Of a DNA stretch of 64,000 nt, positions 2,209 through 21,270 are shown one piece after another (the stretch's first letter is position 1; each line of letters opens with the position of its first letter). Position numbers and translations under genes: made by a program. The DNA is from Pseudomonas sp. DC1.2. GTDB taxonomy: Bacteria > Pseudomonadota > Gammaproteobacteria > Pseudomonadales > Pseudomonadaceae. The notes under the pieces are model-generated. The model ran no database searches. It had not been told where the DNA came from and worked only from the letters and a program-made list of their open reading frames with translations. The DNA is taken from the NCBI RefSeq assembly GCF_034351645.1, contig NZ_CP133782.1, forward strand, positions 5,052,001 through 5,116,000, written 5' to 3'.

Positions 2209-2285
2209 GGGCCTATAGCTCAGTTGGTTAGAGCAGGGGACTCATAATCCTTTGGTCCACGGTTCAAGTCCGTGTGGGCCCACCA
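2209..2285 (+). tRNA. tRNA with CAT anticodon (tRNA-Ile2 or tRNA-Met), 3' half supplied by the island
   Basis: A 77-nt cloverleaf with encoded CCA. The acceptor stem GGGCCTA pairs with TGGGCCC (one G-T wobble), the T arm is CACGG/CCGTG, and the anticodon CAT is at 2243-2245. The anticodon stem and the TTGGTC variable region resemble the lysidine-modified tRNA-Ile2 (ileX type) more than elongator tRNA-Met; this assignment is inference. The 3' strand of the anticodon stem is TCCTT, giving two G-T pairs with GGGGA. The displaced original 3' half at 21012-21057 has TCCCT, which pairs better. The gene is therefore a host 5' half joined to an island 3' half, as expected for tyrosine-recombinase integration at a tRNA. 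Confidence 0.92.
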
Positions 2286-2410: not shown

Positions 2411-3466
2411 ATGGCAACTCTCGTCAAAACTCCTTCCGGCACCTGGAAGGCGCTCATTCGTAAAAATGGCTGGCCCACTGTCGCCAAAACCTTCCGCACA
2501 AAGCGTGATGCGGAGGACTGGTCGAGGCGTACCGAAGAAGAAATGGTGCGTGGCGTGTACATCCGGCGTAGCGGCTCGGAGAAAATGACGCTAGAGGCTG
2601 CACTCAAGCGCTACCTGAGCGACATAACCCCCACCAAGAAGCCCACCACTCAGCGTGGCGAAACCTCGAAAGCCAAGAAACTCATCGAGCACCTGGGTAA
2701 ATACTCACTGGCTGCCCTCTCCGCTGAAATCATCGCCGGCTATCGTGACAAGCGCCTGAACGAACCCAGCCGTGGTGGGACCATCAGCAACAACACCGTG
2801 CGCCTCGAACTGGCCTTATTGAGCCACCTGTACACGGTAGCAATTCAGGAGTGGGGTTTGGGTCTGACGTTCAATCCAGTGCTGAACATCCGTAAGCCAA
2901 GCCCTGGGGATGGTCGTGACCGAAGGTTATCGCCGGAGGAAGAACGCCTTCTGCTCGCGGCAGTGAATCGACACAGCAACCCTATGCTGGGCTGGATTGT
3001 TTGCATCGCTCTGGAAACGGGCATGCGCTCGTCTGAGATCTCATCCCTACGACGACCCCAAGTGGATCTGGCAAAGCGTGTCATACGTCTCTCAGACACG
3101 AAGAACGACGGCTCCCGAACCGTTCCACTGAGCAAGCGCGCTACTGAGGTGTTCAAAGCTGCGATGGACAACCCGGTGCGACCAATCGACTGCAACTTGG
3201 TGTTTTTCGGTGAGCCCGGGAAGGACAAGAAACGTCGACCTTATACCTTCACGAAAATTTGGGGACAGCTGAAGAAAAAGCTCAATCTGCCTGACTTCAG
3301 GTTTCACGACCTGCGCCATGAAGCAGTGAGTCGGCTTGTCGAAGGCGGATTATCTGACCAAGAGGTTTCAGCCATCAGTGGTCATAAGTCGATGCAGATG
3401 CTGAAGCGATACACCCACCTTCGAGCTGAAGATCTGGTGGATAAACTGGACAAAATCTCAAAATGA
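2411..3466 (+). CDS. Island integrase, tyrosine recombinase family
   Basis: A site-specific recombinase of 351 residues that would integrate and excise the island at the neighbouring tRNA. The N-terminal ~50 residues look like an arm-site-binding domain, followed by a core-binding SAM-like domain (about 60-150) and a catalytic domain. Visible catalytic elements are the first arginine in ETGMRSSEISSL, the HDLRHEAVSRL box, the GH of the ISGHKS segment and the terminal tyrosine in KRYTHL. The full R-H-R-H-Y set appears intact. It lies 125 bp past the tRNA and points away from it, the usual arrangement for tRNA-borne islands. The ATG start follows an AGGAG-like sequence at about 2397-2401. Confidence 0.93.
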   Translation: MATLVKTPSGTWKALIRKNGWPTVAKTFRTKRDAEDWSRRTEEEMVRGVYIRRSGSEKMTLEAALKRYLSDITPTKKPTTQRGETSKAKKLIEHLGKYSLAALSAEIIAGYRDKRLNEPSRGGTISNNTVRLELALLSHLYTVAIQEWGLGLTFNPVLNIRKPSPGDGRDRRLSPEEERLLLAAVNRHSNPMLGWIVCIALETGMRSSEISSLRRPQVDLAKRVIRLSDTKNDGSRTVPLSKRATEVFKAAMDNPVRPIDCNLVFFGEPGKDKKRRPYTFTKIWGQLKKKLNLPDFRFHDLRHEAVSRLVEGGLSDQEVSAISGHKSMQMLKRYTHLRAEDLVDKLDKISK

Positions 3467-3743
3467 CTAAGTTTTTATAAAAAATCGTGAAAAAATGCGG
3501 CTATTTTTATAGTCGCATCATCGAAAACTAACAAACACTAGCAAACCCCCGATATATATAGGCGCTATCAGACACCCTCCATTTAACTCCAAAACCAATA
3601 CAGCCAACCCAAGACTACCAAGACGTACAAAACAGCCAACCAAGATACTATATATTGGTAATTTCGGCGCATCAGCCAGTTTGACAATACGCCAATACCC
3701 CTCAAGAATTCGCAGACCTTCTCCAAACACTGCGAGCTTACAC
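3467..3743. other. AT-rich non-coding region downstream of the integrase
   Basis: About 277 bases without a convincing gene. It is clearly richer in A and T than the chromosome. It has short repeats of the type AACAAACACTAGCAAAC and a TATATATA stretch near 3552. It could hold the promoter of the following DNA-binding gene or excision-control sites. A long frame on the minus strand overlaps the next gene antisense and shows no recognisable domain. Confidence 0.4.
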
Positions 3744-3986
3744 ATGACAACTGAAGAGTATCTACTCAACCGTTTCGGCCCCTTAATGAGCATTCCAGAC
3801 ATTGCCACTCTACTAGGGCGCTCTCCTGATGGAGTAAGGGTCTCTCTGTATTCAGACACCGACATTTCCCGAAAGCTCAAACCGGCAATGATCCGGATCG
3901 GCCGCCGCGTATATTTTAGGACAATGCAGATCAATGACGCGTTAAATTTAGATATTGAGGTGAGTCCTCAGGACAGATTGCAATGA
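3744..3986 (+). CDS. Small DNA-binding protein, excisionase/HTH-like
   Basis: An 80-residue protein from the ATG at 3744. It has the layout of a MerR/AlpA/excisionase-type winged helix: a helix around MSIPDIATLLGRSPDGVRVSL, then a basic segment with IRIGRRVYF, a pattern seen where such proteins contact DNA. Its place after the integrase fits a recombination directionality factor or a regulator of the island. It overlaps the next gene by 4 bases (ATGA), so the two are probably translated together. An earlier in-frame start at 3681 has no good ribosome site. The specific role is inference. Confidence 0.6.
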   Translation: MTTEEYLLNRFGPLMSIPDIATLLGRSPDGVRVSLYSDTDISRKLKPAMIRIGRRVYFRTMQINDALNLDIEVSPQDRLQ

Positions 3987-4753
3987 GCTACAAAGCCTAC
4001 GACTGGGTCTGGACGCACGAGTTCGGTTCTCCGACCGCAAAGCTTGTAATGATGGCATTAGCCAAACATGCAGACGAAAAGGGAAAAAGCTGGCCAAAAG
4101 TGCAAACCCTCGCAAAGTTCTGCGGCATTTCCTCCAGAACAGTGCAACGTCAAATTAAGGAATTTGAGCGGGCAGGCCTATTAACCATCCAAAAAGAATA
4201 TCGTGACGATGGCGGTCAGACGACGAATAGATACTTCATAAACCTTCCGTCCGCAAAAGCCTTAGACCCCACTGACAAAGCTGTCACAGGGGGGATGACA
4301 TCTACGACACCCCTGCCCCAGACAGCATTGTGTCGCGGGGGGAATGACACAGCGATGACATACCAAGAACTACCAACCGAACAAAAAAAAGAAATACTAC
4401 AAACAACAGAGGATACCCTCCGCTATCCCACGAAGCTGAAAGCCAGTGATAGCGTATGGATCGTCAAGCTTTTGCAGGACATACCAAAGGAGGACGCTCA
4501 GTTGCTCCTTGACGAGCTTGCAGCCGCACTGAATGCTGAGAGAATCAAAGGCCCATCCTCAAGATGGTTTTACGGGCTCCTTCAAAACTACTACAAAGGA
4601 AATTTCTGCCCGTTGGCTAAGCCGAGTAAACCGAAGCTAAATTCTAATAGCCCTACTATTGAGACCAGCAACGGACTAAACGTCCGAAGTGAAATTGGGG
4701 CTAACACCCTGACCGGGTTAAAAAGGCAAATCCGAAACAAGTCTTTACTTTAG
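3983..4753 (+). CDS. Helix-turn-helix protein, replication-initiator/phage O-like
   Basis: A 256-residue protein. Residues ~5-90 form a winged-helix domain of the type found in phage replication O-like and plasmid replication proteins: YDWVWTHEF, LAKHADEKGKSWPK, then SSRTVQRQIKEFERAGLL. The middle is low in complexity, with a run of polar residues around 125-145 (EQKKEILQTTED). The rest is helical with no known motif. Overlap with the preceding gene suggests one transcription unit. Such proteins on integrative elements often support replication or control of excision, which would help retention during transfer. No enzymatic motif is visible. Confidence 0.6.
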   Translation: MSYKAYDWVWTHEFGSPTAKLVMMALAKHADEKGKSWPKVQTLAKFCGISSRTVQRQIKEFERAGLLTIQKEYRDDGGQTTNRYFINLPSAKALDPTDKAVTGGMTSTTPLPQTALCRGGNDTAMTYQELPTEQKKEILQTTEDTLRYPTKLKASDSVWIVKLLQDIPKEDAQLLLDELAAALNAERIKGPSSRWFYGLLQNYYKGNFCPLAKPSKPKLNSNSPTIETSNGLNVRSEIGANTLTGLKRQIRNKSLL

Positions 4754-4809: not shown

Positions 4810-5067
4810 ATGATGCCACTTCACTTTAAGCAACTTGAAAGCTATTGCGACAGCTTGGACAGAACAGGTGACATACAAGTTATCCTACGAGCACACTACA
4901 AGAATGGCTTTGCGCTCAGCGTATCGGACGGGGTAGTCGACCACACCGTCATCGACGAAGAAAACCGCCCATACTGGTTTAGGACAGTAGAAATGGCATT
5001 AGATGAGCTTGCAAATATCCCTTATATTTCTGACCAGATTATGATTGATCGAAAGTTTTGGTCTTGA
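4810..5067 (+). CDS. Hypothetical protein, 85 residues
   Basis: A small acidic protein preceded by a good ribosome site (AAGGAA, 8 bases before the ATG). No recognised domain. It contains aromatic residues spread through a likely alpha/beta fold (RAHYKNGFAL, YWFRTVEMALDEL). Base composition matches the preceding island genes. It may be co-transcribed with them. Confidence 0.5.
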   Translation: MMPLHFKQLESYCDSLDRTGDIQVILRAHYKNGFALSVSDGVVDHTVIDEENRPYWFRTVEMALDELANIPYISDQIMIDRKFWS

Positions 5068-5376: not shown

Positions 5377-6126
5377 ATGATTTTTCACCTGAGATCTTTC
5401 GCCATCATCAGCGCACTCACCGTACCAATATCTGCGCAGGCCCAAATCCCGGTAACCATCACCAGCGACATACCCGCAACATTGAACCAAGTACAAACGA
5501 TGGCTCAATGGACGCAGCAAATTTCCGGGATGAAACAGCAATACGACCAGATGCAAACGGATTATCAGCAGATGGTTCGCCAATATGAATCGACCACGGG
5601 CTCTCGTGATCTCGGCCAGATAATGAATGACCCCAAGCTGAGGAACTACCTGCCAAACGACTGGCAAGACGTTTACGACAGCGTGAAAAAAAGCGGTTAT
5701 TCAGGGTTGAGCGGATCGGCCAAGAGCATCTATGAAAATAACCAAGCCTACGATGGCTGCGCTCACATCGTGAGCGAGCTCGAGCGCACTTCTTGTGAAG
5801 CGCGATCAGTGAAGGGGGCTCAGGACAAAGGATTCGCCCTGGAAGCTTACGGCGCGGCCCAAGCACGTATGGGGCAGATTGATCAGCTCATGGCCGAAAT
5901 CAACAACACTCAAGACCCCAAGGCCATCGCGGAGCTGCAAAGCCGCATTTCGATTGAACAGGCAAACATTCAGAACGAGCAAACAAAGCTTCAGATGTAC
6001 GGCATGGTCGCCGCCGCTGAAGACAGCCTACAGCAGCAACGGCAATCCGAACTCAATGCAAAGAGCAATGCACGTCGTGGATGGGTTCGTCCTCAGACGG
6101 TCCAGCTCACCAGCCGTGGAGAGTAG
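5377..6126 (+). CDS. virB5: VirB5/TrbJ-like type IV secretion minor pilin
   Basis: A 249-residue secreted protein of the P-type conjugation family, which forms the pilus tip and helps contact the recipient. The N-terminus is a signal peptide (hydrophobic stretch then AQAQ). The rest is mostly helical and glutamine-rich (QWTQQISGMKQQYDQM, then a second helical region around 165-225), as in VirB5/TraC proteins. The start follows AGGAG with a 7-base spacer. It begins a tight operon with a membrane protein, EexN and VirB6. None of the other VirB genes are in the window, so it cannot work alone. Confidence 0.8.
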   Translation: MIFHLRSFAIISALTVPISAQAQIPVTITSDIPATLNQVQTMAQWTQQISGMKQQYDQMQTDYQQMVRQYESTTGSRDLGQIMNDPKLRNYLPNDWQDVYDSVKKSGYSGLSGSAKSIYENNQAYDGCAHIVSELERTSCEARSVKGAQDKGFALEAYGAAQARMGQIDQLMAEINNTQDPKAIAELQSRISIEQANIQNEQTKLQMYGMVAAAEDSLQQQRQSELNAKSNARRGWVRPQTVQLTSRGE

Positions 6127-6128
6127 CC

Positions 6129-6617
6129 ATGATCACCATCATCCATCTTCCTCTGATCCTAATCTGCTTCTTCATAGCATTTTCGATTCACCGATTCTGG
6201 GCCTGCGTCCGTCAAATGGGGTTCACGAAAGAGATTAATGCGCGAGCGCCGCTGATGATTCACCGAGACGTATTCGCCGCCGCGTTGGTTCTAACACCCT
6301 TCATGATCGCAATAGCCGACTGGTCCAGCCTTACCCTACCAGGGCACTCCACTCCGATTTCATCGACGCTGTCCGTATGGATATCGATTGGCCTCCTGGT
6401 AGCGAGCTTGTTCACATTGAGGGACTCCCTTGAACGTGTTGCAGGAAGCTGGGCCGGAACTCGTGAGAGCGTGCTGCGTACCGTTGCAGCACTGCGCATC
6501 ATAGACGACCTTGCCCTCATCAAAGGTTCTGGCCTGGCTGAGGTGCCTTACACGACGGTTGAGCATCAGCCCCATCAACACCGCCAGGATCGTGGCGACA
6601 ACGGAGTGGGAAAATGA
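6129..6617 (+). CDS. Inner-membrane protein of the virB5-virB6 module
   Basis: A 162-residue protein with a hydrophobic N-terminal segment (ITIIHLPLILICFFIAF) and at least two more membrane segments (around 50-65 and 80-100), then a soluble tail. Family not recognised. It starts 2 bases after virB5 and overlaps eexN by 4 bases, so it is translationally tied to the conjugation genes. Similar small membrane proteins sit between VirB5 and the exclusion lipoprotein in conjugation operons, but its function is unknown. Confidence 0.6.
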   Translation: MITIIHLPLILICFFIAFSIHRFWACVRQMGFTKEINARAPLMIHRDVFAAALVLTPFMIAIADWSSLTLPGHSTPISSTLSVWISIGLLVASLFTLRDSLERVAGSWAGTRESVLRTVAALRIIDDLALIKGSGLAEVPYTTVEHQPHQHRQDRGDNGVGK

Positions 6618-6865
6618 GGACTTTTCTAACGTTTGTATCTCTGGCTGCCGCCCTCTCGGCCTGCGGAGATTCGAATATTCATGACGTCGATTGGTATAAA
6701 AAACACGACGTCGAAAGAACATCGGTGATTTCCGGTTGTAGCAACTCCCCTGGAACCCTGGCTATTTCTCCTAACTGCGTAAACGCAAAGCAAGCAGAAA
6801 CTCAGTTGGCCAACTCACGTCGAGGCTGGCTCAACCCAGCAACGACCAAAACACAGGGGCAGTAA
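6614..6865 (+). CDS. eexN: EexN-family entry-exclusion lipoprotein
   Basis: An 83-residue lipoprotein. The signal peptide ends in a lipobox (LSAC, cysteine at residue 17). The mature part has the EexN pattern: DVDWYKKHDVERTSVISGC, a second conserved cysteine (PNCVNAKQAE) and a C-terminal RRGW. Entry-exclusion lipoproteins act in the recipient to block redundant conjugation by plasmids with the same transfer channel. The gene overlaps the upstream membrane-protein gene and ends 2 bases before virB6, the pore subunit thought to be linked to exclusion specificity in related systems (by analogy with TraG/Eex pairs). Its presence on an element lacking a full channel is notable. Confidence 0.8.
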   Translation: MRTFLTFVSLAAALSACGDSNIHDVDWYKKHDVERTSVISGCSNSPGTLAISPNCVNAKQAETQLANSRRGWLNPATTKTQGQ

Positions 6866-6867
6866 AA

Positions 6868-7947
6868 ATGGATAGTCCTATGCTGTTTCAGTTTCTAGGA
6901 GAAAGCATCGATTCGGGCCTTGGCTCTTTCGTCGATGCCACAGCCGGTAATGTGATCAACTCGTTCACGACGCTGGCCGTGGCCTTTGCAACGCTCTACT
7001 ACGTTTTAGTGGGCTTTATGATGATCACCGGCCGTGTAGAACAGACCGGGTCCACGTTCTTGATTTCATGCGGGAAGTTTCTGCTGATTGCAGGGTTCGC
7101 GCTCAATGTCGATAGCTACATGACCTGGGTCGCCCAGACATTGCAGGGCCTCGAAACAGGCGTCAGCTCCGCATGGGCCGGATCTAACGCAGACTACCCA
7201 CCCAAATCCATCTATGAACTCATTGACGGAGCACTGGGCAAGGGCTGGGGGATATCCGGTGATCTTTGGGAGAAAGCGGGCAATCGAGGTTGGCAGGAAA
7301 CCAACATGGCGTTCGGAGACTATTTCAACGCAGTGATCATTGCCCTCGCCACAGGAATTATCGCTATCCCGGCCGGGGGAATGATCGTCGTTGCGAAAGC
7401 GGCCCTGGTCATCATGTTGGGGATTGGCCCGATGTTCGTCATGTGCTTGATGTTCCCTGCCACGCAACGATATTTCGATTCGTGGCTCGGTCAGGTCATG
7501 ACCTACATTTTTCGAATTGCCCTGATGGCTACGGTGCTCTCACTAGCCGTCGTGATCTTCAACAACCTCGTGTCGGCGGTCGACCTAGAGAGCGATCAGA
7601 ACACCCTATTCACATCACTGCTCTTGATCGGCGCGACGGTGGTTCTGGCTCGTCTCCTGGACGAGATGAATACCGTCTCAGGGCAGTTAGCAGGCGGCAT
7701 GTCATTAGCCACCTTAACCTTTGGCCGTATGGTGGCCGGAGCCACTTCACCACTGAGAGTGGCCGGCAACGCAATAAATCGCCAATCGACAAGGCGCGAT
7801 ATGCAATCGGGCATGATGGTCACCGGGGGCAGGCTCAACCATTTGGCGGCGGGCAATACCATGTGGAACCCTGCGTATCGGCAACATGTCATGCAGAACA
7901 TGGGGAAAAACTGGGGGCCAGCCGCAGGGGGCAAAACGAGTCAGTAA
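6868..7947 (+). CDS. virB6: VirB6/TrbL-like conjugation channel protein
   Basis: A 359-residue polytopic inner-membrane protein of the VirB6/TrbL family, the central pore component of type IV secretion. Several hydrophobic segments are visible: about 30-55, 70-85, 150-210 (including IIALATGIIAIPAGGMIVVA and MLGIGPMFVMCLMF) and 230-265. A periplasmic loop rich in tryptophan lies between (about 95-145). The C-terminal ~90 residues are soluble and basic. Last gene of the virB5 operon, followed by a terminator. No VirB4, VirB11, VirB7-10 or VirD4 accompanies it. Confidence 0.85.
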   Translation: MDSPMLFQFLGESIDSGLGSFVDATAGNVINSFTTLAVAFATLYYVLVGFMMITGRVEQTGSTFLISCGKFLLIAGFALNVDSYMTWVAQTLQGLETGVSSAWAGSNADYPPKSIYELIDGALGKGWGISGDLWEKAGNRGWQETNMAFGDYFNAVIIALATGIIAIPAGGMIVVAKAALVIMLGIGPMFVMCLMFPATQRYFDSWLGQVMTYIFRIALMATVLSLAVVIFNNLVSAVDLESDQNTLFTSLLLIGATVVLARLLDEMNTVSGQLAGGMSLATLTFGRMVAGATSPLRVAGNAINRQSTRRDMQSGMMVTGGRLNHLAAGNTMWNPAYRQHVMQNMGKNWGPAAGGKTSQ

Positions 7948-9526: not shown

Positions 9527-9787
9527 ATGAGTTCGGAAGACCAAAAAACCGATCAACATCAAAAAAACGTCGAGCTGTCAGCCGGAATTGACCATCCCAA
9601 GGTATACCAACTCTCGGAGGCTGAGCGGAGCAAGCGAAGGGAAGCTGTAGCCTTTGCCAACGCCTCAGCAAACCTGTCCGCATTTGAAATCACTGACGGT
9701 ATGAAACGCCTCGGCGAGCGTTACATCAGCGGCGAGATTGATCTGGAAGAATTTATAGCGACCTCGGGACAAGAACACGCCCAGTGA
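9527..9787 (+). CDS. VbhA-like antitoxin, no Fic toxin partner
   Basis: An 86-residue protein. The C-terminal ~50 residues match the VbhA/FicA antitoxin pattern: RREAVAFANASANL, then ERYISGEIDLEEFI. VbhA proteins silence Fic AMP-transferase toxins through an inhibitory helix with an S-x-x-x-E-G motif. Here the corresponding stretch reads S-A-N-L-S-A, so the inhibitory glutamate and glycine appear to be missing. No Fic toxin gene (HPFxxGNG) occurs in the window. It may have lost its toxin or been reused, for example as a regulator near the transfer origin, which begins about 60 bases downstream. Confidence 0.65.
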   Translation: MSSEDQKTDQHQKNVELSAGIDHPKVYQLSEAERSKRREAVAFANASANLSAFEITDGMKRLGERYISGEIDLEEFIATSGQEHAQ

Positions 9788-9849: not shown

Positions 9850-9913
9850 TTGTTCATGAACAAGGATTCAAGCACATGGAGATCTAGTGCAGGATAGGCT
9901 TTCGCCGGGAATG
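9850..9913. other. oriT-like repeat 1 with MOBP-type nic core
   Basis: Palindrome TTGTTCATGAACAA (9850-9863), an exact 20-base gap, then CTAGTGCAGGATAGGC (9884-9899) and CGCCGG. On the minus strand this reads CCTATCCTGCACTAG, which contains the RP4/MOBP nic consensus YATCCTG^Y. First of three copies ahead of mobC. Confidence 0.7.
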
Positions 9914-9976
9914 TGACACCCACTACGCCTGCCTTCGCTCTACCCCAGCTATCCGACACACTGCATCAAGGAAAGC

Positions 9977-10035
9977 TTGTTCATGAACAAAAGTTTGGGG
10001 GATATGAGACCTAGTGCAGGATAGGCCTTCACCGG
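9977..10035. other. oriT-like repeat 2 with MOBP-type nic core
   Basis: Same layout as repeat 1: palindrome 9977-9990, 20-base gap, CTAGTGCAGGATAGGC from 10011, then CACCGG. The minus strand reads GGTGAAGGCCTATCCTGC, close to the RP4 nic region. Confidence 0.7.
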
Positions 10036-10075
10036 AAAGCTGTATTACACAACCTCATCTCACCCACGAATTTCC

Positions 10076-10137
10076 TTGTTCATGAACAAATTTAGACGTC
10101 TATGGAGCACTAGTGCAGGATAGGCCAATCGCCGGTA
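10076..10137. other. oriT-like repeat 3 with MOBP-type nic core
   Basis: Same layout again: palindrome 10076-10089, 20-base gap, CTAGTGCAGGATAGGC from 10110, then CGCCGG. It is closest to mobC. Confidence 0.7.
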
Positions 10138-10153
10138 AAGTGTGCGCACACTT
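10138..10153. promoter_or_regulatory. Perfect 16-bp palindrome upstream of mobC
   Basis: AAGTGTGCGCACACTT lies directly after the third oriT-like repeat and 52 bases before the mobC start. It is a plausible operator for MobC autoregulation or another relaxosome binding site. This is inference from symmetry and position. Confidence 0.5.
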
Positions 10154-10205
10154 ATAGTGAGGCTACAGCCCTTGCTAAATTGTTTATCGCTGAATGGGAG
10201 TATTT

Positions 10206-10781
10206 GTGGACAAGCCGAGCCGTTCCATGAACGTCCACCTAGGGACAGAGCTTAAAGCCCGCTGGACGGATTATTGCCTTGCTTTAGGCAAGTCTCCGGG
10301 GGCAGCAGTCAAAGCGGCCATTGAGCACCAACTAGCGCAAGCAGCAGCCCCTGAACTAAAGACTTACCAGCAAATCGCAGAGACTCCGACTCGCGAGCCC
10401 AAGCAACGCTTTGAAATCCTACTGACCGCCTCGGAAAAAGCAGCGATCCAAGAGCGGGCTCACCTAGAACGGTGCTCCATGCGCCGCTGGATCATCGATG
10501 CGATACGCGTCGGTTTGACCCACGAACCACAGTTTGGCATGGACGAAATCGACGCATTAGGCGAATCGAACTATCAGCTTTTGAGGCTAGGACGAAATCT
10601 CAACCAGATCGCTCGCCGTCTGAATGATGGTGAATACGAGCCAGTAACAGTGGAGAGGATCGAAGTGTTAAACGGGTTGATCCGGAAGCATACTGAAGTC
10701 GTCAGCCAGGCCATTCGCGCAAGCCTTGAACGTTGGGATATCGAAGGGACATCACTTCCACAGAAATCATCACACGTATAA
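10206..10781 (+). CDS. mobC: MobC-like relaxosome accessory protein
   Basis: A 191-residue DNA-binding protein that helps a relaxase act at oriT. The N-terminus is ribbon-helix-helix-like (SMNVHLGTELKARW). A second such segment begins at RFEILLTASEKAAI, and the family hallmark LLRLGRNLNQIARRLN is clear near residue 130. The GTG at 10206 has GGGAG five bases upstream and is preferred over the ATG at 10194, which has no ribosome site. In MOBP systems a relaxase gene normally follows or overlaps mobC; none is present here, so the island would need a helper relaxase. It lies directly downstream of three nic-containing repeats. Confidence 0.85.
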   Translation: MDKPSRSMNVHLGTELKARWTDYCLALGKSPGAAVKAAIEHQLAQAAAPELKTYQQIAETPTREPKQRFEILLTASEKAAIQERAHLERCSMRRWIIDAIRVGLTHEPQFGMDEIDALGESNYQLLRLGRNLNQIARRLNDGEYEPVTVERIEVLNGLIRKHTEVVSQAIRASLERWDIEGTSLPQKSSHV

Positions 10782-11271: not shown

Positions 11272-14200
11272 TTAAAGACTGCTGTCTATAGCAGAAGCGA
11301 TGGTGTCCAGTAGCTGATGAGATTTGATCTGGTCAGGATCGCCCATTAGATACTTCAGGAGTTCCTGGCTTGGCAGGGTTTCCCACTCCGAAACCGAGAT
11401 TCGCTCAATCAGCGACTTACTGTCTTCCAGAAGCTTCTTCAGCGGTTGACTTTCATCCGTGTGGATCAGCGCAGCGATACGACGGGCGAGGGCATAGAGC
11501 CAGAGGTTGACCTCATGCGCACAGATGAACGATGTCCAATCGACCTGCGCGCTCAGCGGCTGGCGAATAATCCGAGCTAGATTATTAAAGATCTTGAGGA
11601 GCTCACCTGCGATGTACTGCTGATCTGCTGGCGCAAGGTGCGCGCTCAACGTAGCAAGCTCGTCGGTGAAGGCGCCATCCCCATCAAATTTGAAGTAAAG
11701 CGAACCGCCTTTGAGCGCAGATTTCCACTGGGTGGTGAGGTCCCCCAGCCATTCGCGTGACACTTGTGCAACGTCGACGACCTTTAGCCCAAGCATCGGG
11801 ATCAGAAGTGACTCCAGGATCCAGGGCGTGAAGTGATGGAGCTTTCCGAGGCGACCACGCACAGGTTGGAGGATGTCTTTCAGTTGTACGTCGCTGAGCG
11901 GACTCTCGATCGAGGCAGTCAGCCTGTTAACTAAATGATGCTTGGCAGAGGAATCGGCATAGTTGGCCTCATTGATCAGCCAGCACAACGTGGTTTGCCG
12001 ATCCCCGGATTGGAGCATGTCGAGCATGCCAAGGGCATCGACCGTGAAGGTGCTGGCGTTGAACGCACCCTTGAAAGCATGGACGCCTACCCAGACCAGG
12101 ATATTTGCTTTACATCTCAACAATGCACCGATTTGCGACGGATCCTTATCGAATTCAAGCGACAGGCAAATGAGTTGCAGAGCCTGGACGACTAACGCAC
12201 GCCTGCGGGGATCCTCATTCATTGGACTGGAGCATTCCTGATCCAGCCAATTGACAAGTGCTTGGGGCGCCTTCAACCACAGGATCTTGATGGCGTAACA
12301 GTCGCTCCAAGCGGTATCGATGGTTGAATATCCAAACACTCGTTCCGGATGGTCGTTGGAGAGTAAGAGTTCTTTGAGGTTTTTGCGTTGGTAGTAATCA
12401 AAGTCCAGGTAGCTTTTTTTGACCTTTGGCGCTAATGCGTCTTGCCGCGTTGAGCTCAGGTGCGCGAGAAGGTCGCTCCTCAGCGAATCCGGCAGTGACT
12501 TCTGGTCATCGTTGTAAAGGTGACCTGCATGTGAATGAGCCAATACAAAGCCTGCGGCGTCCCATGCTGAGTGGACGTCTGGGAGCAAAAAACCATCGTT
12601 CCAGAATTTCGAGGGAATGTCCTTGAAACGTTTTGGGGCGAGCTTGCCTTCTTCTAGGTTCCCCTTGGCTTGCATCAGATCGTGCAATTCTGATCCTGAG
12701 CGACCGGCCAGCTCTGGATCGTCCAACCACCATGCAAAGACATCTCCTGACCGTTTGTGATCAGTGAAGGACGAGCGGTGACTTAGCAGTATTGGATCGT
12801 TCTCTTCCTCCGGGCTTTCAGTGCTGGAATCGAAAATTAGCTTCGCAGTGGGCGCTTTCTTGCCGTCCGTGTGCAGAGTGCTTTGGATGATACGGTCCGC
12901 TAATACGAAAACGTTCGGCAACACGTCAAGCGGGATTGGGGTGGCCAGCAGCGGATGTTCAATGTTGGCTCGCTGTATAGAGTTGGACAAGTGGTAGCCG
13001 GCAATAGGTCGGCCATTAGCCGCCCGAATTAGGATGATCCGGTCGTGAAGTTTACTTTCCGGTACAGCAAGTACCCTCAGTTGGACGTTACCGTAGTAGC
13101 CCTTACCCCAAGCAGCGCAGCTCGCCAGCAACTTCTGGATGCGGTTTGGCTCACCTGGCGCAGCCTTGGAGTCTTCAGTGGACAGTTTCTCGGTCGTGAT
13201 GATGAGATACTCGCTGGTCGCAGTGCCAAGCGTGTTGAGTAGGTCGATGCCCGCGTTTTCCATGTACGGATCGATCCAAGCAACCTGAGCGTCATGGTGC
13301 TGCTCAAAGATCTTTCGCAGCCAATCGGTCAACTGCAGACGGCTCGTTCCGCCACTCACCGATAGTGTCTGGAAAAAGCGTCCGTTGGAGGGCTTAGGCA
13401 ACAGCGAACCTACATCGTCCTCGATCAGCCGATTCTGAGTGACCCAGGGATCATCGGCGTGTCCGCCGATTTCGGAGCGGTTGGGCCGGTGAGCTCGGCC
13501 AATACGGCCCGCTGCTTCAAGCTTGGTTTTCTGCTTGCCTGGTACCTGCTTCGCGAGCCAATCCATGCGACCGGTTGAGTGAACGGATTCGACGACGTGC
13601 ATATTCATGTTCACGCTGCGAATGAAAAAGGAGCCAGTCTGTAGCACTAGGTTCGATTCCCCGCCGTCAGCACCGATGGCGTAGATTTCCAGGCTGTACG
13701 CGGTAGCTACTTGGTTCTTGAAGGTATCGATTGCAAAGATATGGTCTACGGGATACTCGACATCCCTAGACAGGCGAGTGATGTGCGACATTTGCGAGGC
13801 ACCGTCGCTGTAGGTGTTCACTACCACCAGAAGCTCTGCAGGATCCCGCATTAGCGGCTCGAACAGTTTTAGCGAAGAGTTTTTCCCTTTGAGCTCCAGC
13901 TTAAATTTCAGACGTTCGCTCTTGGTCAGACCAGGCACACAGACGAACTCGAAATCCCCAAGGCGCCAAGCGTCCAAGGTGCCGAACTTCATACCCGTAT
14001 CGGCGTCCAGCGCGTCACACGCGGCCCTGGCAAGCTTACTTTCAAACTCTTCAGCGGCAGCAAAAAGCAATGGTTTGCTCGGCGATGAGACAGCGCCAGT
14101 ATTGGCACTAGCAAGGCTTGTCGGACTCAACCGTTTGATGTGGTAAAAATACAAGTCATGTGATGGAAAATGCATCACTGGCCGAGCAGTGGGTTTGCCG

Positions 14201-14580
14201 CCAAAGTTGACGTCTAGGACGTGTCCAACCAGTTTCGCATCTAGCTCGATATCCGCCTGGAGACTCGCTTCCCGAAGAGAAGCACCATCGAGGAAGCTTC
14301 GGACGAAAGCCTTTAGCTTGTCGGCCGACGTGTGTAGCGTCAGTCCGTGAGTTCTTACAGTGCTAGTCGCGCCAAGAAGGGTCCTGCTGCTGGTCGTACC
14401 CGTCCATTTATCTGCACAGAAGGTACCTGGCAGAGAACGTCCGTATAGAAATTTGACCTCGGTCGTGTTCTCGTGCTCGATCTCCAGTACCCAAAGTTGA
14501 GTGGCGCTGAGATTCTCGGTGTCTCCGAAGAGATCGTGTAGCCTAAAGTCAGATACTAAGGACTCGAAGTTGATAGTCAT
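11272..14580 (-). CDS. Large cargo protein with PLD-like motif, candidate defence protein
   Basis: A 1102-residue protein not recognised with certainty. Around residues 420-560 a phospholipase-D-like region is visible: AQVAWIDPYMENAGIDLL, then LHDRIILIRAANGRPIAG and YHLSNS. This matches a variant HxK/R...GxxxxN half-motif of PLD-type nucleases. The N-terminal ~300 residues are mixed alpha/beta, and the C-terminal ~450 are mostly helical, with no other motif. The overall design recalls large proteins annotated as VPA1262 family, but I cannot confirm this. It has its own ribosome site (AAGGAAG) and lies alone on the minus strand, divergent from two small genes. Cargo position in a mobile island beside a CBASS-like operon suggests anti-phage defence (inference). 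Confidence 0.7.
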   Translation of the reverse strand: MTINFESLVSDFRLHDLFGDTENLSATQLWVLEIEHENTTEVKFLYGRSLPGTFCADKWTGTTSSRTLLGATSTVRTHGLTLHTSADKLKAFVRSFLDGASLREASLQADIELDAKLVGHVLDVNFGGKPTARPVMHFPSHDLYFYHIKRLSPTSLASANTGAVSSPSKPLLFAAAEEFESKLARAACDALDADTGMKFGTLDAWRLGDFEFVCVPGLTKSERLKFKLELKGKNSSLKLFEPLMRDPAELLVVVNTYSDGASQMSHITRLSRDVEYPVDHIFAIDTFKNQVATAYSLEIYAIGADGGESNLVLQTGSFFIRSVNMNMHVVESVHSTGRMDWLAKQVPGKQKTKLEAAGRIGRAHRPNRSEIGGHADDPWVTQNRLIEDDVGSLLPKPSNGRFFQTLSVSGGTSRLQLTDWLRKIFEQHHDAQVAWIDPYMENAGIDLLNTLGTATSEYLIITTEKLSTEDSKAAPGEPNRIQKLLASCAAWGKGYYGNVQLRVLAVPESKLHDRIILIRAANGRPIAGYHLSNSIQRANIEHPLLATPIPLDVLPNVFVLADRIIQSTLHTDGKKAPTAKLIFDSSTESPEEENDPILLSHRSSFTDHKRSGDVFAWWLDDPELAGRSGSELHDLMQAKGNLEEGKLAPKRFKDIPSKFWNDGFLLPDVHSAWDAAGFVLAHSHAGHLYNDDQKSLPDSLRSDLLAHLSSTRQDALAPKVKKSYLDFDYYQRKNLKELLLSNDHPERVFGYSTIDTAWSDCYAIKILWLKAPQALVNWLDQECSSPMNEDPRRRALVVQALQLICLSLEFDKDPSQIGALLRCKANILVWVGVHAFKGAFNASTFTVDALGMLDMLQSGDRQTTLCWLINEANYADSSAKHHLVNRLTASIESPLSDVQLKDILQPVRGRLGKLHHFTPWILESLLIPMLGLKVVDVAQVSREWLGDLTTQWKSALKGGSLYFKFDGDGAFTDELATLSAHLAPADQQYIAGELLKIFNNLARIIRQPLSAQVDWTSFICAHEVNLWLYALARRIAALIHTDESQPLKKLLEDSKSLIERISVSEWETLPSQELLKYLMGDPDQIKSHQLLDTIASAIDSSL

Positions 14581-17812: not shown

Positions 17813-18424
17813 TCAGGCGATACCAAAACAGCTCTTGACTGAGTCTATGTGTAAAGCGAAACAGGTGACGATCAACACGAAAATTGCGGCCATAGCCAGC
17901 CATGCCGTAAGCGGCACTTTGTCTCTCCAAAAGCTAAAGCTCTTCTGGTTTGCTACCCAGTCAATTTGATACTGCCAGAAGAATTTGTAGTGCGCGTACC
18001 AGTCGCTGAATAGAATTTGCTTGCTGATGGAAGCACCATAATATTGAGATTCAAATGTAGCCAGTCGTGCCCAATAGATGGAAAAATCTGCATTTGCCGC
18101 CAACGCTTCAACCTCGCGGTACAGGTCACGCAGGCCATTGAAAATCTTGGTTATCTCCACGGCAGACTTCTCGTAGTCCGATTTCTTGGAATCGTAAACC
18201 GAGATATAAATACCGATAACGCCAAAAACCGCCATAACCGCAGAAACATTTTTGGCGGACAGTGACTCGTAGACCAGAGAAAAAATACCTACGGCCGTAC
18301 CAATAAACCCAATCAATCCTGGGATCTTATCTACGATGTCATACGTAGCCCAGTGCTTGCGTCCACCAAAGCCAACGTTATAGCCCGTTTCTGCGATACT
18401 TTTGAGTAACGACGCTTGGCTCAT
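17813..18424 (-). CDS. SLATT-like two-transmembrane effector
   Basis: A 203-residue membrane protein. Two adjacent N-terminal membrane segments (about 33-50 and 60-77: IPGLIGFIGTAVGIFSL and AVMAVFGVIGIYI) are followed by a helical cytoplasmic region and a last hydrophobic segment (about 175-195). This matches the SLATT class of pore-like effectors that accompany CD-NTases. Its start overlaps the CD-NTase stop by 4 bases, so production is coupled. In characterised CBASS systems, cyclic nucleotide made on phage infection opens or assembles such membrane effectors and kills the cell. Confidence 0.7.
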   Translation of the reverse strand: MSQASLLKSIAETGYNVGFGGRKHWATYDIVDKIPGLIGFIGTAVGIFSLVYESLSAKNVSAVMAVFGVIGIYISVYDSKKSDYEKSAVEITKIFNGLRDLYREVEALAANADFSIYWARLATFESQYYGASISKQILFSDWYAHYKFFWQYQIDWVANQKSFSFWRDKVPLTAWLAMAAIFVLIVTCFALHIDSVKSCFGIA

Positions 18425-19728
18425 ATGTTTTCACTGATAGGTACAGTTATTTCGCTGCGAGCCACGACAACACCATCCTTGAGGATATAACACTCAACCG
18501 AGTGGTCGCCTTTAAAGCTTGTGGACTCCTGGATTGTCTCATGGCCCTGGTCGGCGGTTATGTAGCCGCGGATGCAATCTCGCTTCTCAGCTTCTTGCCC
18601 GATATTGAGAACCTTCCATTTTACGGTGTACGGATCTGGAACGTCGTTTCGAGCAATCTTGAATTTGAGTGTCTTGCGCGCCTGGAGGGGCAATCCTAGT
18701 GAAATCAATTCACTCAGCAACCGTTCTCGGAAACCTTTTTGCTCCACATCACAGTCGAGTACCAAGGGGTAGCGGACATCGATAGGGGCGAGATCCTCGA
18801 TGAATTCCTCTGTGTCCCTGAAGGTATAAAGGGACTTGGCCAGTGACTCCATAGCGGCACGTGCGGCTGTACGTGTGGTCGGAAAGTCGCGACCAAATAC
18901 TTTCTTCCACCGCTCCCCCTCATTTTCCTTACCCGCAGCTTCAATGGCCTTCAGGGAAAGCTCATATGCACGCTTGGCCGGCTTTTGAAATTTCTGTTTC
19001 ACTTTGACGTGCTGGCGACTGCCCAGCGCCGCGTAACGTTCCTGTTGTGGAAGGTTTGATGCGTAGTAAAAGAAATCCCTGACCATGCAGTCGTATGAGG
19101 CGAAACTTTTGTCAACATAATCGTCCGTCTGCGTGAGGAAATTATGTGCCAGCGTGTCGATCAGGAGGCCCCCAATCCCGATCCCATGCTTGTTCTTCCA
19201 CGCCCGAAGCATTTTGCAGAGGCGACGCAGGTTTCCATTTTGGTCATCATCGACGTCGCTGGTAGCCTTGATTTCATCTTTGGGCTTAGTGATCTTCCAC
19301 GATCCGCCGTTGTACGTATCAGGATATTTGAAGCTGCCGTCGTCTTGCTTGAAAACGGGCTGAACCTCGACGTTGAAATTCTGGAACTTGACGCACACCA
19401 CTAGGCGGTCAACCGTAATCGTGGTCGTGGAGTACCGTTCCTGGATTGCAGCCTTGGTATCTGAAAGCAGCTTCGATTGCCCCCCCTCCTTGTTGTACCT
19501 ATCCCAATCACTGTCGGGCATGATGTACAACATATCGAGGTCGGAAACGCCTTTGATGGCTGTCCACCGGCCATACGAGCCTACTTGGAGGTTATTGGCG
19601 GTGGAATCCAACGTCCGAAAATACTTATTCAGCGAGCGTGTGATACCAGCGTAACGATCTTCAATCGTTACGTGGTTGGTGATGCGCAGATTGGATACAA
19701 AATCCTTAAAAATAACAGCAACTGACAT
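18421..19728 (-). CDS. CBASS CD-NTase with C-terminal AGS-C-like sensor
   Basis: A 435-residue nucleotidyltransferase of the SMODS/CD-NTase group, which makes cyclic oligonucleotide alarm signals. The GS motif and metal-binding carboxylates are visible as GSYGRWTAIKG and SDLDMLY, with a third acidic position in FNVEVQPVF. The helical domain includes MLRAWKNKHGIGIGG. The C-terminal ~130 residues (from about 315) form a beta-rich domain (TVKWKVLNIG, RDCIRGYI, VECYILKDGVVVARS) like the AGS-C sensor. The ATG at 19728 is preferred because GGGA lies at suitable spacing; the ATG at 19734 is an alternative. First gene of a tight operon with the SLATT effector. Confidence 0.8.
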   Translation of the reverse strand: MSVAVIFKDFVSNLRITNHVTIEDRYAGITRSLNKYFRTLDSTANNLQVGSYGRWTAIKGVSDLDMLYIMPDSDWDRYNKEGGQSKLLSDTKAAIQERYSTTTITVDRLVVCVKFQNFNVEVQPVFKQDDGSFKYPDTYNGGSWKITKPKDEIKATSDVDDDQNGNLRRLCKMLRAWKNKHGIGIGGLLIDTLAHNFLTQTDDYVDKSFASYDCMVRDFFYYASNLPQQERYAALGSRQHVKVKQKFQKPAKRAYELSLKAIEAAGKENEGERWKKVFGRDFPTTRTAARAAMESLAKSLYTFRDTEEFIEDLAPIDVRYPLVLDCDVEQKGFRERLLSELISLGLPLQARKTLKFKIARNDVPDPYTVKWKVLNIGQEAEKRDCIRGYITADQGHETIQESTSFKGDHSVECYILKDGVVVARSEITVPISENI

Positions 19729-19734
19729 CGGCAT

Positions 19735-19970: not shown

Positions 19971-20606
19971 CTACGAGATGCATCGAGCCTTTTCCAACAG
20001 CAGCGTAACCATATTGGCGAGATTCCTAGCGTCATCGATGCCTCGGTGGTACCGGCCGCTCCAAGCTAGGCCAAGCGCTTCGACTGCGGGCCTCAACCCT
20101 AATGATGGACATGCAAATATTTCGCAATAGCGCCGTTCAAGATCCAAGTACGCAATTCCAGGCAGTATCGGCCTGCAATTGGCTCTCAGGACATCAGCCG
20201 CAAGCTGGTCAGCATCGTAATGTCCCCAAGAGCCCCACAATGCGCTTGGATATTTTTGTAGGAGCGCAGTGACCTCCATGGCGACCTCCGAGAATGCTTG
20301 GGCGGCATCCACATCAGCTTGCTTAATTGAGGTCAGACTGGTACAGAACTCTGTCAGAGTAGGGTGAAGGGCCGGGCGAACATAGCGCTGAAACATTTCA
20401 ACAGTTTCCAGTGTTCGCAGATCCACCACGGCTAGCCCTATCTCGATGGTTTCCATCTCATCCGGTCTTACGATCAGTGCTCGAGGAGTCTCGGACTCCA
20501 TGAGCTCGTCGCATGTCGCTTCAAGGTCGACGCATAGCATAAAATCGAAAGCACTTACAAATGTCTCGAACGCCTGCAGTTGTTGGGTATTGGGGAGAGT
20601 TTTCAT
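19971..20606 (-). CDS. DEDDh 3'-5' exonuclease, ERI1-like
   Basis: A 211-residue exonuclease. The DEDDh residues are visible: MLCVDLEATCDE (D and E), GHYDADQLAADV (D) and HRGIDDARNLANMV (H and D). The DLEATC pattern resembles the ERI1/3'hExo group, which trims RNA, more than DnaQ. The ATG at 20606 has AGGAAGG just upstream and is preferred over the upstream TTG/GTG-type start. It is co-directional with the CBASS-like operon (237 bases apart), so joint expression is possible but unproven. Last gene of the island before the right attachment site. Confidence 0.75.
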   Translation of the reverse strand: MKTLPNTQQLQAFETFVSAFDFMLCVDLEATCDELMESETPRALIVRPDEMETIEIGLAVVDLRTLETVEMFQRYVRPALHPTLTEFCTSLTSIKQADVDAAQAFSEVAMEVTALLQKYPSALWGSWGHYDADQLAADVLRANCRPILPGIAYLDLERRYCEIFACPSLGLRPAVEALGLAWSGRYHRGIDDARNLANMVTLLLEKARCIS

Positions 20607-20636
20607 CTGCCTTCCTAGAATCGGGCTCTTCAACAC

Positions 20637-21011: not shown

Positions 21012-21057
21012 ACTCATAATCCCTTGGTCGTAGGTTCGAGTCCTACTGGGCCCACCA
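21012..21057 (+). pseudogene. Displaced 3' half of the host tRNA (attR)
   Basis: ACTCATAATCCCTTGGTCGT through to CCCACCA is the 3' half of the tRNA, with anticodon loop, variable region, T arm (GTAGG/CCTAC) and CCA. It has no 5' half and cannot be processed as a tRNA. It was displaced when the island entered, and marks the island's right border. The repeated region continues into the terminator. Confidence 0.88.
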
Positions 21058-21062
21058 TACTC

Positions 21063-21085
21063 AAAGCCGCGCACTGCGCGGCTTT
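21063..21085 (+). terminator. Original terminator of the host tRNA gene
   Basis: AAAGCCGCGC/GCGCGGCTTT hairpin, one base different in the loop region from the copy at 2291-2313. Part of the duplicated attachment region. Confidence 0.75.
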
Positions 21086-21270
21086 CGTGTTTCTGAAGGG
21101 GCTGTATTGGGGATGAACCCGCCATTCAGCCCTGACCTAAGCAGCACATACGCATTCAAACAGTCCCTCGGTACGGCGGCATCTGAATATAGAGGCAGGG
21201 GCAAGCGCCACGAGCGTGGTGTGTGTCTGTAACATGCTATCCCCATGATTGGTGCCGACGGAGAGACCCC

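Follow-up and report, generated by a model that had tools for sequence, protein, structure and literature searches.

A same-strand array of three PromA-type oriT units on a relaxase-less chromosomal island of Pseudomonas sp. DC1.2

Gene content of the island

The window analysed here is a 64-kb stretch of the Pseudomonas sp. DC1.2 chromosome, and the term refers to that whole stretch. It holds an island of about 18.8 kb inserted at tRNA-Met, with an integrase (PF00589) beside the attachment site. This extent follows from the tRNA-Met gene at 2209-2285 and a displaced copy of its 3' half at 21012-21095, 18.8 kb away. An exact 14-mer scan for attachment repeats found none, and the repeat was found instead as an 86% match. 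The features of the island are listed below.

2209..2285, plus strand: tRNA-Met (CAT), attachment site at the left end, repeated at 21012-21095
2411..3466, plus strand: tyrosine integrase (PF00589, E 4e-32)
3681..3986, plus strand: small HTH protein, HTH_17-like, below the cut-off
3983..4753, plus strand: winged-helix protein with a replication-protein-like N-terminus (HTH_36, E 9e-17)
4810..5067, plus strand: orf85
5377..6126, plus strand: VirB5 homologue (PF07996, E 1e-56), 56% over 220 positions to VirB5 of P. syringae pUSA011-1
6081..6617, plus strand: p178, no Pfam match
6614..6865, plus strand: EexN-like entry-exclusion lipoprotein, 46% over 74 positions to the annotated EexN of pXCP1
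6868..7947, plus strand: VirB6 homologue (PF04610, E 2e-42)
9527..9787, plus strand: VbhA-type antitoxin-like protein (PF18495, exactly at the cut-off)
9850..9923, plus strand: oriT unit 1, palindrome 9850-9863, nic core 9884-9899
9977..10050, plus strand: oriT unit 2, palindrome 9977-9990, nic core 10011-10026
10076..10150, plus strand: oriT unit 3 and presumed mobC promoter, palindrome 10076-10089, nic core 10110-10125
10194..10781, plus strand: MobC/NikA-type relaxosome accessory protein (PF21983 and PF05713, both over the cut-off)
17813..18424, minus strand: cargo, SLATT_6 effector with two TM segments (CBASS-type)
18421..19734, minus strand: cargo, SMODS/AGS_C oligonucleotide cyclase (CBASS-type)
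21012..21095, plus strand: displaced 3' half of tRNA-Met with terminator, right end, 86% over 84 bases to 2240-2323

The integrase was 97-99% identical over its full length in three related stretches (L021, L134, and L138) and was matched in part in L014 (94%) and L020 (99%), with no match within the fetched stretches L018 and L142. The small HTH protein was matched in L014, L015, L018, L019, and L021. Matches to orf85 were found in L014, L018, and L021 (TTGTTC islands) and none in L015-L017, L019, L020, or L022. The winged-helix protein may have a role in replication.

In related islands and in some plasmids p178 also lay between virB5 and eexN. It was matched in only 13 of 72,556 plasmid records (E 1e-5), including the small plasmids that combine p178, EexN, and VirB6, and it may be a marker of the hitchhiker lifestyle. 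The EexN-like lipoprotein had no Pfam match over the cut-off. The VirB6 homologue matched TraH/TivB6 of pSN0729-62 and the pXap41-type plasmids at 58-59%. A gene for a GIY-YIG protein stood between the VirB6 and VbhA-like genes. The VbhA-like gene lay just left of the array, and several related islands also had a VbhA match close to the left of oriT. No Fic domain was found among the 20 island ORFs scanned. The island MobC had the N-terminal strand MNVHLG and was 73% identical to MobC of pUSA011-1. To the right of MobC lay the cargo, which included the CBASS-type pair. An exonuclease-domain protein (19971-20636) adjoined this pair, and a 1102-aa island protein at 11272-14580 had no Pfam or PADLOC match.

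Structure of the oriT array

All units lay on one strand, within about 280 bases of the island. Each of the three combined the left palindrome TTGTTCATGAACAA with the core CTAGTGCAGGATAGGC across a gap of 20 bases, and the unit starts were 127 and 99 bases apart. The first-pass annotation had reported these positions and distances, and all were present in the sequence; the mobC-like gene that it placed downstream of the units is the MobC/NikA-type gene. A palindrome to the right of each nic was absent from that description, and this right palindrome was the part that differed among the units, the nic core and left palindrome being common to all three. The right operator of unit 2, TGTATTACAC, was that of the pSB102/pSN0729-62 MobC class, a class without a gene on the island. 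Unit 3 carried TGTGCGCACA, the operator of the class of the island's own MobC, and the right arm of unit 1 fit no MobC operator class.

When up to 3 mismatches were allowed, the core occurred 3 times in the window (expected 0.26), and at up to 2 mismatches the palindrome also occurred 3 times (expected 0.18); no shuffle out of 100 gave as many as 3 for either motif. A 50-base pattern (palindrome, 20 free bases, core) had 3 exact matches in the 5.82-Mb genome, all within the array, and its reversed control had none. The shuffles and the genome-wide pattern count ruled out a chance origin of the three units. Simple tandem duplication was also rejected, since the units combine identical nic cores with right arms that differ in operator class.

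Relation to PromA-type oriTs

We searched the units against plasmids with blastn. Unit 3 matched the region before mobC in PromA, P. syringae, and Xanthomonas plasmids (best E 7e-8), the PromA plasmids including pIPO2T, pTer331, pSB102, and pYK0413-01. The best plasmid match of unit 2 was A. salmonicida pS28-3 (E 1e-4), and that of unit 1 was a Comamonadaceae plasmid bearing mobC (E 4e-4). All three units matched pSB102, units 1 and 2 weakly (E 0.2 and E 0.06). In the fetched annotations most of the matched plasmids had mobC directly behind the site, and the PromA ones had a relaxase behind mobC. The search that the first-pass annotation had proposed, of the segment against plasmids and Pseudomonas genomes, thus returned PromA-type oriT regions before mobC, and kin of the array in Pseudomonas. 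Its reading of a MOBP nic core held, the oriT being of the PromA type, but the family is PromA/IncU-like and not RP4 itself, to which the core had been likened. We took the exact nick position within the island motif from the MOBP consensus.

The left palindrome lay 19-21 bases from the core in most of the matched sites, with different letters (TTCGTCATGACGAA and TTGGTCATGACCAA, against TTGTTCATGAACAA on the island), and pLH3.2 and pPLS206 had no left palindrome. The constant spacing between palindrome and core, which had been put forward as a mark of the element, was therefore exact here but is near-constant across the PromA oriT family and not specific to the island. No helper bearing the left palindrome TTGTTCATGAACAA was seen, which counts against a reading in which the array widens the range of helpers. 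An in silico assignment puts the nick sites of PromA plasmids over the -35 element of the mobC promoter and presumes the palindrome at or after the -10 to be the MobC operator, as described in the available text of PMC4175270. The array had the conserved nic core beside mobC. A palindromic operator near the -10 that matched the class of the adjacent MobC was found in unit 3; unit 2 carried the operator of another class, and unit 1 had none assigned.

Absence of relaxase and transfer machinery

A profile search of the whole genome (E 0.001) found neither a PF03432 relaxase nor a PF03135 VirB4. The PF03432 model matched the relaxases of three helpers (L029, L030, and L042) over the cut-off; it thus detects PromA-type relaxases, which makes the absence meaningful for the PF03432 family. 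Pfam scans of 20 chosen island ORFs found no relaxase of other families, and the T4SS genes among them were VirB5 and VirB6 only. By these searches the island has neither a relaxase nor a complete mating-pair system, and the earlier statement that it has no relaxase gene was borne out. The element is therefore not a PromA plasmid, which would bring its own relaxase, VirB4, and full T4SS.

Related islands and multi-unit arrays

Relatives of MobC were present in 10 of 298 same-genus genomes, its own included. A single MobC protein used as a query against genome contigs confirmed no relative, the viral contigs scanned contained no unit, and a PDB sequence search gave one match (E 0.12), which we disregarded. 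Among the 10 MobC genomes, PF03432 was matched in G083 (on another contig) and G287 (beside mobC, on a 28.8-kb contig), and PF03135 in G091 and G287. The exact unit pattern occurred in 14 of 398 genomes, with 3 units in G000, G083, G261, and G304, 2 in G182 and G256, and 1 in the other eight.

A scan of species-representative genomes gave 61 stretches with at least one exact unit, by name mostly from Burkholderiales and then from Pseudomonas. At a relaxed criterion 10 of the 61 had further units: Dyella monticola (4 units, each with a different perfect left palindrome), Propionivibrio (3), Pseudomonas GM50 (3), P. marginalis (3), P. antarctica (3), P. frederiksbergensis SI8 (3), Pseudomonas SJZ074 (2 or 3, at a contig end), P. 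oryzihabitans (2), Bordetella genomosp. 5 (2), and Sediminihaliea (2). Some of the further units had a core mismatch, an imperfect palindrome, or an odd gap, and in both P. oryzihabitans and P. frederiksbergensis the last unit had a gap about 10 longer. The four left palindromes of Dyella monticola (L136 9636-9997, reverse strand) were perfect over 14 bases, with the centres ACGT, AGCT, ATAT, and CATG; because these centres are self-complementary, they argue for a site of a dimeric protein over a hairpin loop.

A relaxase match was seen in 13 of the 61 stretches, none of which had more than one unit; since the stretches were at most 8 kb long (one of the 13, L047, is a fragment), absence in the others means absence within that length. 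PF03432 over the cut-off was found in none of the nine named multi-unit genomes tested, two of which had weak matches below it. EexN and VirB6 matches lay beside the units in 12 of 17 longer contexts. In L016 only VirB5 was matched, and in L139, a short contig, only VirB5 and p178. The longer context of L020 had no EexN or VirB6 match, Dyella had no match to any gene query, and Bordetella (L140) had only a weak integrase match.

Two further loci were recorded. In L159 (G003), two tRNA-Met-like repeats enclosed an insert of about 5.6 kb that carried one oriT unit and a 23-residue MobC match, with no integrase match; it may be the relic of an element at this tRNA hot spot. In L047 (1492-1569, turned strand), an oriT unit and a mobC match were followed by a relaxase match cut to about 26 residues, which may represent a transition from helper to hitchhiker.

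Correspondence between MobC and the right operator

We listed 41 units before a mobC gene with their left palindrome, right arm, and MobC. For the Mantel comparisons 37 of the 41 rows were kept, 32 after dereplication. Rows were dropped for L020 (the mobC frame appears broken, and the selected ORF does not have the usual mobC start), for one L059 unit not beside mobC, and for L038 and L039, which are without a left palindrome. Over the 32 rows, MobC distance correlated with the right arm (rho 0.49, p 0.0005) and weakly with the left palindrome (rho 0.13, p 0.023), and right arm and left palindrome were not correlated with each other (-0.02, p 0.69); these p values are optimistic, because the operator classes were defined on the counted rows and the rows are related by descent. 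In a dereplicated set of 29 rows MobC was split into parts. Against the left palindrome, rho was 0.045 (p 0.21) for the first ribbon-helix-helix (RHH) and 0.12 (p 0.05) for the second part, the latter becoming 0.17 (p 0.035) without the TTGTTC rows. Against the right arm the two parts gave 0.44 and 0.39 (both p 0.0005).

The beta-strand motif of the first RHH agreed with the right operator in 28 of 29 dereplicated MobC/oriT pairs, a figure that is a description and not an independent test, as the classes were drawn up from the same rows. NxH MobC went with TGTGCGCACA in 7/7 rows, NxY with TACGCGCG in 4/5, DxY with TACCNNGGTA in 5/5, and SxK or SxR with TGTCATAC in 2/2, and the YxxRxP group went with a looser GT...CACTA in 10/10. 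Each half of MobC correlates with the right arm, so the strand is the likely reader of the operator, though not a proven one. The simplest reading of these correlations is that MobC binds the right palindrome and that something else reads the left one, which is probably not a MobC site; MobC as the reader of the left palindrome was not favoured, its correlation there being weaker than that with the right arm. The first-pass annotation had named the left palindrome as the possible MobC target, and that idea now moves to the right-hand palindrome, since the left one barely tracks MobC.

Operator classes within arrays

Operator class was scored in 15 arrays, 40 units in all; compared with an earlier operator assignment, this set includes L119 and omits the third unit of L138, which is weak. 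Allowing up to 1 mismatch, 28 of the 40 units contained a class operator, against 0.9% per unit in shuffled arms. At least two MobC operator classes occurred in 10 of the 15 arrays, which come from several lineages, although five of these ten are sister three-unit islands of one lineage. In all five three-unit islands, unit 2 carried the pSB102/pSN0729-62-type operator with 0 mismatches, and unit 1 had no operator class within 1 mismatch. Unit 3 was of the local MobC class in the four islands with a readable mobC (NxH in two, NxY in two). In the fifth, G182, unit 3 had a DxY operator and the mobC frame looks broken.

Operators also occurred without a local mobC. P. oryzihabitans (NxH and SxK) and P. 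frederiksbergensis (YxxRxP, SxK, and NxH) had no mobC match in the fetched context. Against multi-specificity, 5 of the 15 arrays had fewer than two assigned classes: L138 had no assigned unit, L021 and L140 had one each, Dyella repeated the DxY class, and Sediminihaliea repeated the YxxRxP superclass.

The base before TGCAGG

The base before TGCAGG was tallied over 111 units, with related rows counted as found and 11 stretches (L059, L060, L066, L072, L075, L076, L085, L096, L097, L102, and L103) left out as duplicates, since longer contexts covering them were already in the tally; the search pattern required the core, so the tally cannot show how often the core is retained. In units before mobC and a relaxase this base was T in 12/15, A in 3/15, and G in 0/15, and where the fetched DNA showed mobC but no relaxase behind the unit it was G in 17/27 (Fisher p 4e-5). 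G also preceded TGCAGG in 10/13 upstream array units and in 32/45 units with no mobC behind. In the window this base stands at 9887, 10014, and 10113, and across all units without mobC and relaxase behind them it was G in 59/85. The hitchhiker units are thus not exact mimics of the units before mobC and relaxase, a point against an array that widens the range of helpers. As T completes the TTGCAG -35 hexamer, hitchhikers may have a weaker mobC promoter; alternatively, the nic context of their units may differ in function.

Conservation within and around the arrays

Across the five three-unit islands, 2 of 90 palindrome and core columns varied against 19 of 60 spacer columns (p 3.8e-7). For units 1, 2, and 3 the varying motif columns were 2/30, 0/30, and 0/30, and the varying spacer columns were 10/20, 1/20, and 8/20. 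In units 1 and 3 the motifs are visibly constrained, and unit 2 is uninformative because its spacer is as conserved as its motifs. Left of unit 1 the pairwise identity was 24 to 79%. Right of unit 3 it was 40-60% in 9 of 10 pairs and 96% for G083 against P. marginalis. Between nic 1 and nic 3 the identity was mostly 80-100%, with 60-100% in spacer 3. Because the flanks diverge outside the outer units, these units look like joints of a cassette exchange that includes mobC and its operator. Exchange by a relaxase at nic, or by homologous recombination in the conserved core, would do this.

Interpretation of the array

We consider it probable, on the features of the sequence, that the locus is a same-strand array of PromA/MOBP-type oriTs on a relaxase-less integrative mobilizable element (of the iOriT type) and that the array widens the range of helpers. 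The idea that the element is adapted to a helper relaxase, with unit copies of distinct specificity, had been raised in the first-pass annotation and is supported by the PromA match, the missing relaxase and VirB4, and the differing operator classes. A PromA-like conjugative plasmid entering the cell would supply relaxase and T4SS; its relaxase would nick the minus strand of one unit at 5'-GCCTATCCTG^CACTAG, and its T4SS would export the excised island. Unit 3 would be read by the island's own MobC, which would recruit the helper relaxase there, and unit 2 appears built for a pSB102-class MobC brought by the helper. Unit 1 may be degenerate or belong to an unsampled class. Because the units differ in the MobC operator right of nic, such an array would broaden the helper range. 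The island VirB5, EexN, and VirB6 would probably replace or protect subunits of the helper T4SS.

The array could instead be a passive scar in which exchanges at nic, relaxase-mediated or homologous, stacked half-oriTs, with only unit 3 at work. We regard this as unlikely, though deserving of weight. In its favour, the flanks swap at units 1 and 3 and bring different mobC alleles, no operator can be recognised in unit 1, which in G182 is degenerate, and unit 2 with its spacer is uniformly conserved, like a recently shared block. Such a scar does not account well for the conserved palindromes and nic cores of units 1 and 3 between drifting spacers, for the exact foreign-class MobC operator that unit 2 keeps in 5/5 islands, or for the recurrence of multi-unit arrays in Dyella, Propionivibrio, Bordetella, Sediminihaliea, and several Pseudomonas.

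The array might also serve dosage, offering a single relaxosome several nic sites and so more initiation, with no wider helper range. The identical left palindromes and nic cores of the three-unit islands (except for the degenerate unit 1 of G182) would suit this, as would the two units of one operator class in Dyella and the two of one superclass in Sediminihaliea. The right operators differ, however, in 10/15 arrays, and same-strand copies 99-127 bases apart would be expected to favour abortive termination. We regard dosage as improbable. Least credible is a purely regulatory role, in which the units would be operators for MobC or another factor and take no part in transfer. The units do contain palindromes, unit 3 overlaps the presumed mobC promoter, and the MobC of RA3 is described as an autorepressor in the text available of PMC4175270, but all 3/3 units keep the nic core that is common to conjugative-plasmid oriTs before mobC and relaxase, and the locus lies on islands carrying T4SS genes in most of the fetched contexts.

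The wider form of the helper-range reading is that such islands are a widespread, undescribed class of Gram-negative hitchhikers, and we give it an even chance. Tandem same-strand oriT arrays would act as a key ring, with a common nic core and per-unit operators of different MobC classes set by a beta-strand code (NxH to TGTGCGCACA, NxY to TACGCGCGTA, DxY to TACCNNGGTA). The relaxosomes of several helper lineages would launch the island, and the nic sites would double as joints for exchanging mobC-operator cassettes. Many genomic islands have no known transfer route, and here a readable logic is suggested: likely helpers could be matched to an island from a 10-base operator and a few MobC residues, and one passenger island could use several vehicles if its units are readable by different helper plasmids. 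As a CBASS-type defence pair is among the cargo, the same logic also bears on how defence genes travel.

Comparison with known systems

The PromA plasmid oriTs (pSB102, pIPO2, pTer331, and pSN0729-62) and the oriT-mobC-nic region of the IncU plasmid RA3 share the nic core, the palindromic operator near the -10, and mobC directly downstream with the island, and PromA oriTs also have the left palindrome at a near-constant gap. Their fetched stretches, mostly 3 kb long, each contain one unit with mobC and relaxase behind it, whereas the island has three units and no relaxase.

Some small plasmids (the Acidovorax 12.4-kb plasmid, pMRSN12121, and pXCP1/pXap41) carry p178, EexN, and VirB6 as on the island, and pXCP1 also carries VirB5. 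No PromA-type unit was present in pMRSN12121 or in the 24 of 41 kb seen of pXCP1, which have instead an LPD7 relaxase-like protein, another mobC, and a protein with a T4SS DNA-binding domain (coupling-type). The plasmid of Acidovorax sp. GBBC 1281 (L037), typed as non-mobilizable, has a single PromA-type oriT, mobC, EexN, and VirB6, with no relaxase in its PLSDB gene table, which is incomplete.

SGI1 has a single oriT, and T4SS subunit substitution of its kind dodges entry exclusion. The island VirB5, EexN, and VirB6 are proposed as substitute subunits by analogy with TraN, TraG, and TraH of SGI1, which are thought to act in this way. SGI1-family islands are likewise integrated and helper-dependent, with a few T4SS subunit genes (traN, traG, and traH) and mobilization factors, according to the part available of PMC10954446. 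They differ in their site (trmE), their helper (IncC), and their T4SS subunits and mobilization proteins, and the 20 ORFs scanned here show VirB5/VirB6- and MobC-type proteins and not the traN/traG/traH and MpsA/MpsB that define that family.

Relaxase-less islands, multiple oriTs, and specificity set by RHH proteins are already known. The term iOriT denotes an integrative mobilizable element without a relaxase, and pEC156 is named as carrying multiple oriTs, both in the available text of PMC11389934. In the literature searched, which covers no preprints and few subscription journals, we found neither Gram-negative chromosomal islands with tandem same-strand oriTs of mixed MobC classes nor the correspondence between MobC strand and operator.

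The closest precedent of the array, by analogy of organisation, is the multi-oriT staphylococcal plasmids. The oriT mimics of the pWBG749 family are likewise relaxase-less, with two or three oriTs mostly of different subtypes, in the accessible parts of PMC4652767 and PMC8136818; they are Gram-positive plasmids, likened to the island by organisation only, and the island is chromosomal with all units on one strand. There the oriT subtype is read by the RHH protein SmpO, whose N-terminal residues set specificity (same parts of PMC4652767 and PMC8136818), and smpO in cis lets a non-cognate helper mobilise a plasmid (PMC8136818, as far as its available text goes). By analogy with smpO in cis, we propose that the island MobC recruits a helper relaxase to unit 3. 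The portion of PMC4652767 available to us counts 42 plasmids with two oriTs and 15 with three, mostly of different subfamilies, the pairs always on opposite strands and no three-oriT plasmid with all on one. It also reports that same-strand oriTs recombined and that such oriTs are expected to delete, which counts against a functional array here. The same-strand tandem arrays described above thus defy both the staphylococcal pattern and the expectation of self-deletion, and they offer a direct test of termination control.
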